Shown here in pieces: positions 1 to 8,000 of a stretch of DNA of 8,127 nucleotides (positions within the stretch are counted from its first letter, which is position 1; each line of letters starts with the position of its first letter). Source of the stretch: Promethearchaeota archaeon (GTDB lineage Archaea; Asgardarchaeota; Lokiarchaeia; Sigynarchaeales; SOKP01); NCBI GenBank assembly GCA_016839635.1, contig JAEOTV010000060.1, forward strand, positions 1 through 8,127. The letters run 5' to 3'. The position numbers and the translations under genes are program-made. The notes below the pieces were generated by a model, which was not told where the DNA came from, did not search any database, and was given only the letters and a program-made list of their open reading frames with translations.

Positions 1-459
1 ACAGTCTTTTGGAATCCAATCTAAAGGTCTTTCAATCTCTATATTATTCTGGATCATAAGTTCTGACATTAGAGGATAAATACCTTTATGAGCAATAGAA
101 CGATCAGGATTTTGAATATTTTTTATCCGCATTTTATATCTAGCAATTCTGACAATATCAGCAAAATTAATATCTTTAGGGCAATGTTGCAAGCAACTAT
201 TACACATTAAACAATCCCATAATATCTGACTGTCAATTATCTCATCTTCAAATCCTTCTAATATCATTTGAATAATTCTACTCGGTGTAAATTTTTGAAC
301 TTTACTGATTTGGCATACACCTGAGCAACGAGCACATTGATAACATTTTTTTAATAAATTAATTAAATCTGGTTCATAAATCTTTTTTATGTATAAATTT
401 AATTCATTTTCTTTGTCTTCTACCTTTTCTAATTTTTCTATTTCAGTTATAAGGTTCAC
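1..459 (-). CDS. HdrC/HdrD-like Fe-S protein, N-terminal part (runs off window)
   Basis: Translating the minus strand from GTG at 459 gives 153 codons that stay open to the window edge. Two CxxCxxCxxxC [4Fe-4S] motifs are visible: C39/C42/C45/C49 (KKCYQCARCSGVC) and C83/C86/C89/C93 (WDCLMCNSCLQHCP). This is the dicluster ferredoxin module of HdrC and of the N-terminus of HdrD/GlpC/GlcF-like proteins, which passes electrons to a CCG-domain catalytic site. The segment after the second motif, ending in an 'LDWIPKDC'-like stretch, resembles the linker before CCG domains in fused HdrD-type proteins. I therefore lean to HdrD-like, but the deciding CCG domains would lie outside the window. The start is inferred: a TAA lies four codons upstream in frame and no ATG is available before the first motif; the adjacent AAGGA is a weak, very close ribosome site. 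It begins 4 bp after the FrhB-like gene stops, so it is operonic and the probable acceptor arm of the HdrA complex. Confidence 0.85.
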   Translation of the reverse strand, partial: MNLITEIEKLEKVEDKENELNLYIKKIYEPDLINLLKKCYQCARCSGVCQISKVQKFTPSRIIQMILEGFEDEIIDSQILWDCLMCNSCLQHCPKDINFADIVRIARYKMRIKNIQNPDRSIAHKGIYPLMSELMIQNNIEIERPLDWIPKDC

Positions 460-3151: not shown

Positions 3152-3178
3152 CCCCATCCTTCGCAAGGTAAGTCCTCT
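3147..3178 (-). promoter_or_regulatory. Candidate SECIS-like hairpin in 3' UTR of mvhD
   Basis: Archaeal SECIS elements usually sit in the 3' UTR, and two UGA-containing genes end just upstream. The most structured part of the gap forms, in mRNA sense, a CCUU/AAGG stem (3165-3168 with 3158-3161) closed by a GCG loop. Below it is an asymmetric internal loop, UUA on one side and AUGGG on the other. Below that is a lower helix of AGAGGAC-type sequence against GUUUUU, rich in G-U pairs. Layout (long lower helix, asymmetric purine-containing loop, short upper helix, small apical loop) is SECIS-like. I cannot see a clean match to the conserved GAA/A core, and the lower helix is weak. The placement is strong; the identity is not. 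Confidence 0.3.
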
Positions 3179-3203
3179 TATAACTAAAATTTGTTTATAA
3201 GAA

Positions 3204-3665
3204 TCATTCTGCAGGGGTAGTTATAACTTGTTGTGGTTCAATTTTTGGGGGCTCCTCACTTAAGTTAAGTGGATTAGGTCCGGCTTTCTCAACTTTTTCT
3301 AAGGCGTCTTCAACACTTTTTACAAATTTCTCCGATTCTGCACCACTTAACCAATACATATTTATTCTTTGATTTCCGAAACCACGAGATTCTAAGATTC
3401 TATTTGCTAAATCTATATGTCTTTCGGCTGTGAAATTACCTTTTTTAAACTGACATTCATTAGGGCGTCAACCAACAACCATAACACCATCAGCTCCCGC
3501 GCGAATACTGTAGAGAATGTGCTTAACATCAACTCTACCAGTACATCTCACCTTTATAATTTTTACTGCAGGAGTATATTTTAATCGAGAAACCCCAGCT
3601 AAATCCGCCGCACTATATCCTCACTTTAAGCAGGCAAAAACAATTAAATTATAAGTATATTCCAT
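3204..3665 (-). CDS. mvhD: MvhD/VhuD electron-transfer subunit, selenoprotein with two UGA-encoded Sec
   Basis: The frame from ATG 3665 reads through two TGA codons, at 3621-3623 (Sec15) and 3468-3470 (Sec66), and ends at TGA 3204-3206, giving 153 aa. MvhD is the small [2Fe-2S] protein that links hydrogenase or formate dehydrogenase to HdrA. Family motifs are all present: C12-L-K-U15 matches the conserved CxxC, then R40-C41-T-G-R, then G65-U66 with C71 in the 'GCxxxxC' motif, then the 'GNFTAER' region. Both TGAs replace family cysteines, and VhuD is a known selenoprotein family. About 40 C-terminal residues after the 'YWLSGAESEKF' segment are Pro/Glu-rich and look like a linker. A strong GGAGGTGAT ribosome site overlaps the end of hdrA; only 6 bp separate the genes. 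The last TGA is followed by TTC-TTA-TAA, so a third Sec with a two-residue tail is formally possible, but no family Cys lies there and I take it as the stop. Confidence 0.9.
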
Positions 3666-3671
3666 GTCTGT

Positions 3672-5615
3672 TTAATCACCTCCTAAAAGACCGTCAATTT
3701 CAGCAAATAATTGATGATCTCGATAATATCTGATATCAATTGCTTGAGTAGGGCAACATGTAGCACATATACCGCATCCATCACAATTTATTTCATCAAT
3801 GAAAGCACCGATATCTTTTTCAATTCTGATGGCGTTTTTAGGACATTCTTTTTCACACCGTCTACAAGAAATGCAAAATTCGCTATCCACCTCAGCAGTA
3901 ATTAGCTCTATATCGATTTGTCCTGGTGATGTTAACTCAGCTACTTTACTAGCTGCTGCTCGAGCTTGAGAAACGGAATAAGAAATATTTTTCGGTCCTT
4001 GAGCAAATCCAGCTATAAAAATTCCTTTTGATTTAGTCTCTTGTGGCAATAAACCAAAATGCGATTCTGTGAGAAAGCCATAAATATTAGTATCAAGATT
4101 TAAAACCTTTACAATTTGTTGAGTACCTTTAGAAGGAAGTGCTGCTGTAGATAAAACTACTAAATCAGCATCAATTTTTACAATTTTATCTGTTAATGAT
4201 GAATAGACTCGAACTTTCACATTTTTAGTTTCAGGATCTTCAGAGATTTCGCCTACTTTTCCGCGAATCATTCTAATACCTGCATCTTTAGCTCGTTCAT
4301 AATATTCTTCAAATCCTTTTTCAGGTGTTCTTATATCAATATAACAGATTGTAATATTCGCATCGGGAAATTCTTCAAGCAATAGCCGTCCATTTTTTAG
4401 AGCGAGCATACAACACACACCACTGCAATATGTTCGCTCAGTTTCTCGACTTCCTACACATTGTATAAATACAATTTCTTTCGGTTTCTTTTCATCTGAA
4501 ATTCGGTGCACATGACCTTCAAGTGGTCCATTTGGGGCTAAAATCCGCTCTAATTGTACTTGAGTTATAACATTCTCGAAATCTCCATAACCATATTCTC
4601 CAAATGGTTCATGTATGTCCCAACCTGTTGCTATTATAACAGTTCCAACCTCAACTTTGACTTCTGTGGGTACTTGGCTAAAATCAATAGCATCTAATTC
4701 ACAAGCGTCTACACACGAGAAACATTCTATGCAAGCATCTCGATCAATATCATATAAAAATGGTACTGCTTGACCAAATGCTATATCAATTGCTCTTCGT
4801 ACTCCTAAATCTTCATCGAAATAATTGCTTGTGTATACGGGACAAACTTCTGTACATGCTCCACATCCATTGCATTTATCTGTTGTATAACGTGGTTTCT
4901 TTTCAATTGTTACGGTATAATTACCAACATAGCCTTCTATTTTTTTTACTTCGCTATAGCTTAATAATTCAATATTCTCATTTCTATTGACTTGAAGCAT
5001 CACTGGACCACATATTCATATACTGCAGTCATCTGTTGGAAAGGTTCTGTCTAACTGAGACATTCTCCCACCTATTGTGGTTTTATGCTCTACTAAATAA
5101 ACCTTAATACCCTGATTCGCAAGATCAAGAGCCGCATTCATCCCGCCAATTCCCCCTCCTATTACCAGTGTGGCTTTTGTAACTGGAACAGTTTTAATAG
5201 GAACTGGTTCTAATAGTTTTGCTCGTTCAATACCACTTTTTACAAGGATTTTTGCTTTTTCCGTAGCCTCTTCTTTACTGTCTGTACACCATGAACAATG
5301 CTCACGTACATTTACCATTTGAAAATAATATGGGTTTAAATCTGTTTTAGCAATTGTTCCCCTATAAATTACTTCATGTGTACGTGGAGTTCAAGCAGAA
5401 GCTACAATTCTGTTTAAATTCTTCTCTTTTATATCTTCAATTATCTCGTTTTGAGCATTATCAGTTCAAAGAAATGAATTTTTCTTTGATATAATTATTT
5501 CATCTCCTAAGCTTTTCACATACTCCACTAATTCATCGCAATCTACTTTTTGACGTATATTGATACCTCAGGTGCAACTATAGTATCCAATCCGATGATT
5601 TTCAGTATTAGTCAT
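3672..5615 (-). CDS. hdrA: HdrA, FAD/iron-sulfur hub, selenoprotein with four UGA-encoded Sec
   Basis: One frame of 648 codons runs from ATG 5615 to TAA 3672, interrupted only by TGA at 5568-5570 (residue 16), 5466-5468 (50), 5391-5393 (75) and 5016-5018 (200). The 647-aa product has normal HdrA length. HdrA carries the FAD that splits or merges electron pairs in Hdr complexes. In order: an N-terminal domain with YSCTUGINI (C14, U16), FLUTDNAQ (U50) and ASAUTPRTHE (U75), matching the family's CxCG, YxC and ACTPRTHE cysteines; FAD-binding GGGIGG at 153-158; DCSIUICGP (C197, U200, C202), matching DCSxC; inserted ferredoxin with C248/251/254/258 and C295/298/301/305; QCVGSRE to YCSGVCC (C386, C397, C401, C402), the typical HdrA cluster site, all normal Cys; and a C-terminal ferredoxin with C581/584/587/591 and C611/614/617/621. 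Trp residues use TGG (residue 109, for example). It is the first gene of the operon. A GAGGTG lies about 15 nt before ATG, and TAA immediately precedes the ATG in frame, fixing the start. Confidence 0.93.
3676..3684 (-). promoter_or_regulatory. Shine-Dalgarno site for mvhD inside the end of hdrA
   Basis: On the minus strand the sequence is AGGAGGTGA, the fullest anti-16S match seen in the window. It lies in the last codons of hdrA and sits about 10 nt before the mvhD ATG. This points to strong, coupled translation of mvhD and supports treating both UGA-bearing genes as live. Confidence 0.75.
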
Positions 5616-5735: not shown

Positions 5736-5985
5736 TTTTTTTTTAAAATTTATTCATTTTCAATATTTTTAATACTTTCTGTTAATCGTTATAATCAAAT
5801 ATTTGTAAAGGGGACACAAAACCAAAGGATTTTTAACCAGATTGAAGATTCTTGACTATTTGATTTTGGAAAAAGTCAAAGAAGAAGGTATTTATAATCG
5901 ATCTTAAACATTTTAGTTTGGAAAATTTTATTTTACGTTAAAAAGAGGAGTAAGTAGATTCTTCTCAAAAAATAGTACAAATTAC

Positions 5986-6076
5986 GTGAGATGTTTAGAA
6001 TAAAAGCTTAAATACTAAACATACAATAATCTTCTCACTTAAAATTTTATAAAATAATTCCTTGAAGAAGTGAGAA
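5986..6076 (+). promoter_or_regulatory. Cluster of dyads and mutually exclusive hairpin arms
   Basis: ATGTTTAG (5991-5998) and CTAAACAT (6015-6022) are a perfect 8-bp inverted repeat enclosing an AT-rich CTTAAATA (6007-6014) that could be a plus-strand TATA box. Just outside, GTGAGA (5986-5991) can pair with TCTCAC (6033-6038). The same TTCTCACTT (6032-6040) can instead pair with AAGTGAGAA (6068-6076). The two latter hairpins share an arm, so only one can form. The second stem ends just before the ATG at 6078. Confidence 0.4.
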
Positions 6077-6077
6077 T

Positions 6078-6143
6078 ATGGCGGATGGAATCTTTATAAT
6101 AAGAGGTGGTTTTTTAGGGTGGGAATTTACTCATAAACTATAA
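6078..6143 (+). CDS. Possible 21-aa small protein (weak)
   Basis: ATG at 6078 and TAA at 6141 frame 21 residues, beginning MADGIFIIRGG and ending in a Trp-containing tail. It is the only plus-strand ORF here preceded by promoter-like structure: a TATA-like box at about 6007, and hairpin arms ending 2 nt before the ATG. No good Shine-Dalgarno site is seen. It converges on the 3' end of the SDR gene 8 bp away. I do not recognise the peptide; it may be chance, a leader peptide or a remnant of a longer gene. Confidence 0.18.
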   Translation: MADGIFIIRGGFLGWEFTHKL

Positions 6144-6150
6144 TGATATT

Positions 6151-7128
6151 CTAGGGAATACCATTGTTTAAGAACTCTTTATAATAATGAGATTTGTTTA
6201 AAAGGAATCGTTGAGCAAATGGTTTGAACATAGTAGTAAAGAATCTTGAAAAAGCTACCTTTTTTCTCACTGCATCGAAATAATCATCGAGAGTATACCT
6301 TTGATAATTCAAAAGCGCTTGACTTCTATCTGTTGTCATAAATCCGCAATGAAATCCTCTATCTCGCCTGAAAGCTTCTTCTGGTAAGAATTTATGGCCA
6401 ATACCAAAAACATCTAACATTTCATTAAGATATTCTCTATATGAAATCCGACATCGTTCACCTCCAGCTATATGCATTATTTCTCCCCAGATCTCATCAT
6501 TTTCTACAGCATTTGCGAGTGCGAGACCAACATCATTTGTATCACAGATTTCAATACAAGTATCAAGCGGCATTTCAAACATAAGTGGATCCATTTGTAA
6601 TTTATTTAATGAGACGATGTAAGTTAACCGAAAAATTACCCATTTTAAGGAAGAATTCTTAATTAATTCTTCACATTTTATTTTCTGTTTGGCATACTCA
6701 TCATCTGGATTTGGATTGAGTTGATCTTCAGTGTTTATCAAAGGATTTTCAAGTCGATCTCCATAGACTGAAACTGAAGATGTAAAAATAAATTTTGGCT
6801 TATTAGATTGATTTTCCATTGCTTCAATTATATTAGCTGTGCCTCCAACATTCACAGTTTCTGCGAACTTGGGTTTTTTATCGGCAAGAGGAGGAATAAT
6901 CGCAGCGACATGAATAACTACGTCTCTATCAGAGATAGCTTTTTCTACTTCTCTATAGTTTCTTAAATCCCCCCAAACGACTTCAATGCCTTTCTTATAT
7001 TTGTTTGCAAGTCTTTTATTTCTTTTTGTTCTAATATCAAAAACTCGTATATTATGATTTCTTTTGAGCAGTTCTTTTAGAGTACTTAAACCAACATTAC
7101 CAAATGCTCCAGTTAATAAAATTTTCAT
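6151..7128 (-). CDS. Extended SDR-family NAD(P)-dependent epimerase/dehydratase
   Basis: 325 aa, ATG start, TAG stop, with GAGGT 8 nt before the ATG. The Rossmann fold is clear: TGAFGNVG with G7/G10/G13, the strand ending VFDIR (D31 at the ribose-binding position suggests NAD, R33 leaves NADP possible), GDL at 53-55, and 'HVAAIIPP' near 73-80. Catalytic residues are visible: TSSVSVYG (116-123) supplies the Ser, and YAKQK gives Y145 and K149 (YxxxK). This is the extended SDR family, whose members epimerise, dehydrate or reduce sugar nucleotides and related compounds; the substrate cannot be read from sequence. The C-terminal 50 residues, rich in Phe, Arg and Lys ('FSRFFTTMFKPFAQRFLL'), look amphipathic and could lie on a membrane surface; this is inference. 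It has its own promoter, probably controlled by the neighbouring PadR regulator, and stands apart from the hdr operon. Confidence 0.88.
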   Translation of the reverse strand: MKILLTGAFGNVGLSTLKELLKRNHNIRVFDIRTKRNKRLANKYKKGIEVVWGDLRNYREVEKAISDRDVVIHVAAIIPPLADKKPKFAETVNVGGTANIIEAMENQSNKPKFIFTSSVSVYGDRLENPLINTEDQLNPNPDDEYAKQKIKCEELIKNSSLKWVIFRLTYIVSLNKLQMDPLMFEMPLDTCIEICDTNDVGLALANAVENDEIWGEIMHIAGGERCRISYREYLNEMLDVFGIGHKFLPEEAFRRDRGFHCGFMTTDRSQALLNYQRYTLDDYFDAVRKKVAFSRFFTTMFKPFAQRFLLNKSHYYKEFLNNGIP

Positions 7129-7193
7129 ACCTAAATACCTCTAGCCTAAATAAATTTGATTTTGATAATTATGTGACTGATATTTAATATTAA

Positions 7194-7242
7194 GATATAT
7201 CAGAGTCTACTATAATATATATCTGAGTCTACCATATATAAA
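7194..7242 (-). promoter_or_regulatory. SDR gene promoter with tandem operator-like direct repeats
   Basis: Minus-strand TTTATATA (7235-7242) is a good archaeal TATA box with an A-rich BRE just upstream. Immediately downstream are two copies of ATATATC(A/T)GAGTCTAC(T/C)AT, at 7195-7213 and 7217-7235, with 2 mismatches and a period of exactly 22 bp, about two helical turns. The expected start site (about 7210) lies inside the array, so a bound protein would block initiation. Confidence 0.6.
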
Positions 7243-7336
7243 CCTTTGTAAAAGAAAAACAATATTAATTGAAAATCAAAATCTTCTTTAAATCAATCGA
7301 AATGAAAGAATACACATTATTGGTATAAAATAGGGT

Positions 7337-7933
7337 TTATTTATTGGTTTTTAAATTATCGATTCTTTGGTCAATCTCATTGACTAAGTTATCTAATTTA
7401 TTAACTACTTTTGATAGAACAAGTTTTCTTTTTGAGAGAATTTGAAGTTTTTCATCTTTGGTTTTCCCAATTAAACTTGCATCATCAATTAAATCAGGAC
7501 CAAAAAAATCTTCGAAATCTTTGGGGAGGACCAAATTAGTTAGTCCTATTGTTGACATAATCATAGAAAGTAGAGATTTTCGCATATTTTGCTGTCTTTC
7601 AAGAAGCATTTTTAAGGTTTTTCTTCCCTTTTCAGTAATTCGATAAACTTTGCGCTCTCTTTTTCCTTCCATCTCACTAGTAAACTCAATTAAACCTTTT
7701 TCTGTTAATGAAGAAAGATGTGGATAGAGAGAAGATGCAGTAGGATTCCACACACCATATGTATCTTCAGTTATTGTTTGCATAAGACTATACCCATGAG
7801 ATGGGCCTTTCTCCAATGCCAATAATATCAATGTGCTGATGTGTCCTTTTTTCATAGACTGTTCAATAGCGTCAGCAATTACATCAATTTTTTCCGTGTT
7901 TTTTGTTTTTCCTAGGCTTTTTTTACTACTCAT
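7337..7933 (-). CDS. PadR-family winged-helix transcriptional regulator
   Basis: 198 aa from ATG 7933 to TAA. An upstream in-frame TTG at 7969 would add 12 residues, but it lies downstream of the likely start site and ATG follows AGGG at a workable distance, so I prefer ATG. PadR hallmarks: 'ILLALEKGPSHGYSLMQTI' at about 36-54 with HGY at 46-48, 'SSLYPHLSSLTEKGLI' (recognition helix, about 67-82), and the basic wing 'KRERKVYRITEKG' (about 90-102). A C-terminal helical region follows; the last 35 residues have the heptad-like pattern of the PadR dimerisation helix. These regulators are usually repressors that sense small hydrophobic or phenolic ligands or stress, and often regulate themselves and an adjacent gene. 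Here the adjacent SDR gene, 208 bp away on the same strand, is the likely target. The ligand is unknown. Confidence 0.9.
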   Translation of the reverse strand: MSSKKSLGKTKNTEKIDVIADAIEQSMKKGHISTLILLALEKGPSHGYSLMQTITEDTYGVWNPTASSLYPHLSSLTEKGLIEFTSEMEGKRERKVYRITEKGRKTLKMLLERQQNMRKSLLSMIMSTIGLTNLVLPKDFEDFFGPDLIDDASLIGKTKDEKLQILSKRKLVLSKVVNKLDNLVNEIDQRIDNLKTNK

Positions 7934-7972
7934 CTCACTATAACCCTGTTTATTTAAAATACATATCAATTA

Positions 7973-8000
7973 TAGATATATCTAATTACGTAATAAATAA
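7973..8000 (-). promoter_or_regulatory. padR promoter with palindromic operator-like site
   Basis: TAGATATATCTA (7973-7984) is a perfect 12-bp palindrome just downstream of the AT-rich minus-strand TTATTTAT (7993-8000), a possible TATA box. Its centre GATATATC also occurs at 7194-7201 in the SDR promoter. Placement between TATA and the expected start supports autorepression, although short AT-rich palindromes are common in such DNA. Confidence 0.4.

Follow-up and report, generated by a model that had tools for sequence, protein, structure and literature searches.

The window (the whole stretch of DNA analysed here, 8,127 nucleotides of contig JAEOTV010000060.1 from a Promethearchaeota archaeon) carries hdrA followed on the same strand by vhuD, a putative SECIS element, two FrhB/FdhB-like genes and the start of an HdrC-like gene (Table 1). 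The hdrA reading frame runs from 5615 down to 3672 and comprises 648 codons, that is, 647 residues plus a TAA. Its internal stops are four TGAs, at residues 16, 50, 75 and 200, and neither TAA nor TAG occurs within it. The plus strand across the same stretch is crowded with stops, and the coding strand is the minus strand, the translation of which bears out the original prediction that the four TGAs are the sole disruptions of the frame. The vhuD ATG is at 3665, six bases beyond the hdrA TAA, and the vhuD product was matched to FlpD (PF02662) at 144.3 bits against a gathering score of 22.3. Locus L001 (Candidatus Lokiarchaeia archaeon isolate ABR05) is 86% identical to the window over 5.66 kb. 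Stretches similar to the epimerase-like/PadR-type stretch of the window were observed upstream of hdrA in several relatives.

Table 1. Features of the window, in order of position. All lie on the minus strand; U denotes a putative selenocysteine (Sec).
Feature	Position	Strand	Basis or remark
Start of HdrC-like gene, cut by the window end	1..459	-	ORF list, profiles, comparison with L001
Second FrhB/FdhB-like subunit, 370 aa	464..1576	-	ORF list, domain and family profiles
FrhB/FdhB-like subunit with ferredoxin domain, 498 aa	1589..3085	-	ORF list, domain and family profiles
Putative eukaryote-like type I SECIS	3173..3207	-	AUGA, 9-bp stem, 11-nt A-rich loop, GA
UGA of the SECIS core, codon 154 of the vhuD frame	3204..3206	-	Probable vhuD stop, or Sec then Phe-Leu-TAA
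vhuD/mvhD (FlpD family), putative Sec codons U15 and U66	3204..3665	-	Pfam match, alignment, 9sfi_K
TGA, VhuD U66	3468..3470	-	TGA in 43/43 covering rows; X in 9sfi_K
TGA, VhuD U15	3621..3623	-	TGA in 44/44 rows; X in 9sfi_K
hdrA, 647-residue HdrA with four putative Sec codons	3672..5615	-	Translation, homologues, purifying selection
TGA, HdrA U200, CxxU (C197-S-I-U200)	5016..5018	-	Position 197 of 5odc_A; X198 of 9sfi_A
TGA, HdrA U75	5391..5393	-	Translation; TGA in 44/44 orthologue rows
TGA, HdrA U50	5466..5468	-	Translation; in 44 orthologue rows, TGA 32, Cys 12
TGA, HdrA U16, motif C14-x-U16-G	5568..5570	-	Translation; TGA in 44/44 orthologue rows
NAD-dependent epimerase-like gene	6151-7128	-	Upstream of hdrA, same strand
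PadR-type regulator	7337-7969	-	Upstream of hdrA, same strand

The hdrA product is homologous over its full length to 5odc_A (E 3.1e-192, residues 5-644) and 9sfi_A (E 4.2e-194), and comprises an N-terminal Fe-S domain, an FAD/thioredoxin-reductase domain, and inserted and C-terminal ferredoxins. Comparison with 5odc_A by Foldseek gave a TMq of 0.78. The top NCBIfam match was NF040770 (HdrA2) at 757.1 bits, under the curated cut-off of 1100; this profile runs on into an MvhD-like domain, which in the window is a separate gene (P0002, 649-773 of 777). Upon alignment with HdrA homologues, all four TGAs fell on Cys columns of the family, as had been proposed from the motifs around them, and the refuting outcome, TGAs that miss these columns, did not appear. 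The in-frame UGA at the CxxU column places the product among the putative Sec-containing HdrA. The X residues of 9sfi_A and 9sfi_K were taken to be Sec from the known Sec sites of the family. The alignment thereby supports a reading of the gene as an HdrA with four putative Sec codons at conserved Cys positions.

When TGA is read as a stop, hdrA yields an ORF of 100 aa from residue 100 and another of 443 aa from residue 205. Splitting of the gene by standard callers had been foreseen, and these pieces were confirmed; the main call loses 204 N-terminal residues, not the 99 expected, because the 443-aa ORF begins at residue 205. HdrA of these archaea is badly truncated in databases: of the best 120 hits listed from the public protein database (P0003-P0122), 93 are remnants of 439-443 aa. 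W stands at the TGA sites in the nine near-full-length entries for Loki HdrA that were examined (P0003, P0004, P0007, P0009, P0012, P0013, P0016, P0017 and P0018).

In all, 63 loci were collected, with one genome per species. The orthologue alignment comprised 53 rows, namely 47 orthologues (the window included) and six paralogues (L045-L050) that were counted apart. Three orthologues (L029, L044 and L060) are without the N-terminal columns, leaving the 44 rows counted in Table 1, where columns 16 and 75 are TGA throughout and column 50 is either TGA or Cys. At column 200, TGA is present in all 46 orthologue rows that cover it. Four Secs had been called exceptional; within the Lokiarchaeial clade they are the commonest state, all three N-terminal Secs being present in 32/44 orthologue rows. 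They are not obligatory, because the other 12 rows have Cys at position 50. In L029, hdrA lies in two frames (5886-6429 and 6329-8000), probably through an assembly indel.

Across 227 genomes of the phylum, with up to five candidates scored per genome, 49 of the matches listed had at least 66% identity. Three to five TGAs were found in 47 of these and one TGA in each of two partial matches, with TAA or TAG in none. The 110 distinct full-length HdrA sequences translated from the loci contain 254 internal TGAs, a figure that omits six C-terminal TGAs treated as normal stops. Columns 16, 50, 75 and 200 hold 244 of them, other Cys columns (298, 301 and 614) hold eight, and two lie off Cys, so that 252/254 are on Cys columns. 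At positions 14/16/50/75/200, the patterns were CUUUU (31), CUCUU (23), CUCCU (19) and CCCCC (31), with CCCCU (2), CCUUU (2), CUUCU (1) and CCUCU (1) as rarer forms. The four-TGA pattern is not due to chance. The extra putative Secs are on Cys of the inserted and C-terminal ferredoxin motifs, at 298 in four rows (L134-L137), at 301 in three (L087/L014, L101/L023 and L145) and at 614 in one (L038). The HdrA of L014 and of L023 each have five TGAs.

Ka/Ks over residues 1-199 was 0.05-0.10 in 7/7 orthologue comparisons, and over residues 201-647 it was 0.045-0.062 in the five comparisons where it was computable. Short segments were noisy, residues 1-15 alone giving values from 0.19 to 2.3. Purifying selection acts across the hdrA UGAs. 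A decaying gene or an assembly error would fit the two rows with TGAs off Cys columns (L140 and L143) and the N-terminal part of L029 in another frame, but the same TGAs recur in dozens of separately assembled genomes, selection is purifying and TAA/TAG is found in none of the 49 orthologue matches listed. For the clade, shared TGAs, selection and the lack of TAA/TAG refute this explanation, and its probability was judged negligible.

Changes at the Sec columns were counted on a FastTree tree of 100 rows from which those columns had been removed. The fewest changes were one at column 200, four at column 16, six at column 75 and seven at column 50. Each of the 79 Sec-HdrA has U200, and all of them fall to the same side of a branch supported at 99; single placements on the tree are unsure because some long branches meet. 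The Secs other than U200 have, as far as the aligned sequences indicate, been gained and lost.

Sec machinery was searched for in the genomes of 12 relatives and in 14 control genomes. SepSecS was over its cut-off in 12/12 relatives and in 1/14 controls (M. jannaschii). SelB-like matches were obtained in 12/12 relatives at 228-248 bits, with three over the cut-off and 11 on the contig of spcS. PSTK-like matches were obtained in 11/12 relatives, none over the cut-off, with a weak match (E 9.6e-5) in G009. SelD with its own in-frame TGA was found in 10/12 relatives, and a tRNA-Sec match beside spcS in 7/12, with 3/12 genomes over the cut-off. With a threshold of E 0.001, 14/14 control genomes also give hits to the SelB, SelD and tRNA-Sec families and 9/14 to PSTK, and weak matches to these four families were therefore given no weight. 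The archaeal Sec-utilisation trait was found in the relatives, SepSecS being the one component over its cut-off in all 12, and the absence of Sec machinery, which the original prediction had named as an outcome that would speak against it, did not appear in these genomes. Two adjacent selD-like genes with one TGA each were seen in G001, G003, G005, G006, G007, G008, G010 and G011; two or more selD genes have been described for Loki- and Thorarchaeia (PMC11227280).

Stop usage was counted in 324 mechanically called ORFs of at least 200 aa from L001-L051, a set that leaves out the window and in which some ORFs may not be genes. TAA ended 246, TAG 53 and TGA 25. One of the TGA ends is accounted for by L038, where codon 614 of hdrA is an additional Sec codon. 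UGA is not simply reassigned, because the remaining 24/324 ORFs still end in it, and a changed genetic code was rejected for these loci. Decoding of the hdrA UGAs as Trp or Cys, whether through an altered genetic code or through stop-codon read-through, could account for the nine database entries with W, although these are taken to reflect gene calling under a code with TGA as W. It is at odds with the ORFs that end in UGA, with the Sec machinery of the relatives and with the covarying SECIS described below. Moreover, the four N-terminal Cys columns (14, 16, 50 and 75) hold Cys or TGA in 173/173 rows, and a Trp codon never occurs at 16, 50 or 75. Such decoding is very improbable, and the hdrA UGAs are presumably read as Sec in the organism of the window.

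The putative SECIS at the end of vhuD agrees with the published type I form of Asgard eSECIS, which has a GA_[G/A]A core, an upper stem of 7-15 bp with no more than two mismatches and a loop of 8-20 nt (PMC11227280), and it lies 3' of the selenoprotein genes. An element occupies the corresponding position in 43/43 loci when up to two mismatches were allowed and in 30/44 under strict limits. Its form in relatives is AUGA, 9 bp, a loop of approximately 11 nt with an invariant AAA, and GA or AA. Within the 9-bp stem, 94.9% of cells are paired, compared with 86.6% in shuffles, and 27 cells show double changes, compared with 7.4 +/- 2.0 in shuffles (0/500 as high). When the partner strand was slid, pairing fell to 40-58%. 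A covariance model of the element was searched against 23 orthologous operons, among them the window, and each gave one copy on the same strand. Among other Sec-hdrA loci, 22/37 gave a copy at E 6.2e-5 or better, with scores of 71.5 bits in L139 and 49.8 bits in L050, and 15/37 gave no match at E 0.01, some of these stretches possibly ending early. The folding energy of the window region showed no extra stability (z -0.33, 66/200 shuffles as good), and Rfam, from which two chance snoRNA matches were all that was obtained, had no hit at the SECIS region with E up to 5.

In 33/43 loci, the vhuD frame continues past U66 and meets its first stop-like codon in the UGA of the SECIS core. A TAA or TAG precedes it in 9/43, and L038 is different. 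Read through, this UGA would lengthen the product by two residues in 27 of the 33 loci, by three in two, by six in one and by 21-26 in three. A stop is likelier than read-through here because the gain is two residues in 27/33 loci, 9/43 stop earlier and L038 is arranged differently; a VhuD that normally ends with Sec was therefore judged the less likely case. A ribosome that has reached the SECIS-core UGA would have opened the SECIS, and the codon would then not be read as Sec. Separately, homology between the N-terminal domain of HdrA and VhuD, suggested by their similar-looking Cys spacing, was rejected at an hhalign probability of 0.1%.

In the HdrABC-MvhADG complex, the N-terminal cluster of HdrA is ligated by Cys197 from the other HdrA, the rest of the ligands coming from the N-terminal domain, and the cluster lies on the proposed path to ferredoxin (PMC9012536). 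HdrA U200 aligns with this residue. Because Cys197 is given in trans to the N-terminal cluster of the partner, U16, U50, U75 and U200' (the prime denoting the other protomer) may be all four ligands, and the ligand count could be four of four. The earlier reading of the gene as HdrA is supported, and the mostly selenolate-ligated cluster that it proposed is consistent with the evidence; the equivalence of U200 to the Cys given in trans had escaped it, as had U15 and U66 of vhuD and the shared SECIS.

Five ligand candidates (14, 16, 50, 75 and Cys197') are available for four places. Loss of a single N-terminal Cys gave no guide to the ligands, as all four are kept in 173/173 rows, and the passages of the literature on the N-terminal cluster ligands named only Cys197. 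C14 is invariant and is TGA in 0/173 rows, while Sec is found in many rows at 16, 50, 75 and 200. In an AF2 model built from 19 rows (mean pLDDT 75.9, which is moderate, with residues 185-197 below 50), U16, U50 and U75 lie in the loops just after the first three beta strands of the domain (residues 9-14, 40-46 and 69-74), and C14 closes the first of these. On the simplest reading of alignment and model, 16, 50, 75 and 200' may be the ligands of one [4Fe-4S] cluster, all of them Sec; C14 could be a ligand in place of one of 16, 50 and 75.

A different arrangement was also weighed, in which the Secs are real but only some are ligands. C14 would then be a ligand, and C14-x-U16 and C197-xx-U200 would be redox-active Cys/Sec pairs serving selenenylsulfide chemistry or protection against oxidation. 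C14 and C197, the neighbours of U16 and U200, are Sec in 0/173 rows, C14 is conserved as well as the other three N-terminal Cys, and the HdrA motif is listed as CxxU (PMC13188914), all of which would suit such pairs. Against them stand the cluster ligand found at the equivalent of U200 in the solved complex (PMC9012536), the lack of a Cys among the nearby residues examined around U50 and U75, and the extra Secs on ferredoxin-motif Cys. Redox pairs of this kind appear unlikely.

The preferred reading is a four-Sec HdrA in which one SECIS serves six UGAs and three or all four of the cluster ligands are selenolates, and its probability was put at about 0.68. Within a soluble Hdr complex, HdrA would be the subunit that binds FAD and bifurcates electrons, and hdrA would be co-transcribed with the two-Sec vhuD and the F420-binding FrhB-like subunits. 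The single SECIS after vhuD would direct the decoding of all six UGAs as Sec, the most distant lying approximately 2.4 kb upstream. U16, U50 and U75, together with U200 of the other protomer, would ligate the [4Fe-4S] cluster of the N-terminal domain; the selenolates would tune the potential of the cluster and the rate of electron transfer, and F420H2 might be the electron donor. A fuller version is tentative and was given somewhat less than an even chance. In it, the cluster is all-Sec, an ancestor with U200 as its only Sec acquired those at 16, 75 and 50 later, step by step, and the seventh UGA terminates vhuD with the SECIS unfolded by the ribosome.

Methanogen Sec-HdrA (9sfi_A) resembles the window HdrA in its full-length homology and in the X at the U200 column, but it has a single X, with Cys at the U16, U50 and U75 columns, whereas the window HdrA has four TGAs. 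A VhuD chain accompanies HdrA in 9sfi, and the window has an hdrA-vhuD pair. The TGAs of the window VhuD are at the same two columns as the two X of the VhuD/MvhD chain 9sfi_K, from which vhuD of the window type differs in having the SECIS-core UGA as its first stop-like codon in most loci. In M. maripaludis, hdrAU is located with vhuD (PMC11097638). The HdrA row of a 2026 review table gives one Sec (PMC13188914), in line with the statement in the original prediction that HdrA, an established selenoprotein family in some methanogens, usually has one. The HdrA/FrhD selenoproteins reported from Asgard archaea (Huang 2024, PMC11227280; Sun 2021, PMC9723677) come from the same superphylum and represent the same gene pair, with a type I SECIS that has an AUGA_GA core, as in the window, and that is shared by hdrA and frhD (PMC11227280).

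Sec in Asgard HdrA and FrhD/VhuD, the shared SECIS, the two-Sec VhuD and the one-Sec HdrA at CxxU are already known. As far as checked, the N-terminal Secs of HdrA are new. The main text of Huang 2024 (PMC11227280) does not contain the phrases "multiple Sec" or "Sec residues", and a four-Sec HdrA was not found in the texts consulted, which included PMC11227280, PMC13188914, PMC9723677, PMC11291895, PMC1794560 and PMC2398784, with supplementary tables and Mariotti 2016 outside this scope. Among prokaryotic selenoprotein families, the vast majority carry a single Sec, and two or three are confined to a small subset (PMC13188914). In the HdrA described here, a conserved set of four putative Secs, and of five in a few rows, is placed on actual or possible Fe-S ligand columns. 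The natural series from one to five Sec would allow the effect of selenolate ligation on a [4Fe-4S] cluster in electron bifurcation to be followed, and the vhuD stop inside the SECIS would provide a natural test of a Sec UGA against a stop UGA in one message.

F420-linked HdrA2 systems are like the window, which combines HdrA with an MvhD partner and has two FrhB-like genes. The window differs in having HdrA and VhuD as separate genes and in scoring below the HdrA2 cut-off. A related HdrABC has been termed F420H2-dependent (PMC5296606). In L001, the counterpart of the HdrC-like gene encodes 425 aa and resembles a fusion of HdrC with HdrB, the HdrB-like part having been recognised by eye. After this gene, at the end of the L001 operon, lies a second HdrA (12426-13925, plus strand) with Cys at the CxxC and at the visible N-terminal motifs, in which an N-terminal-type domain is fused behind the FAD part.
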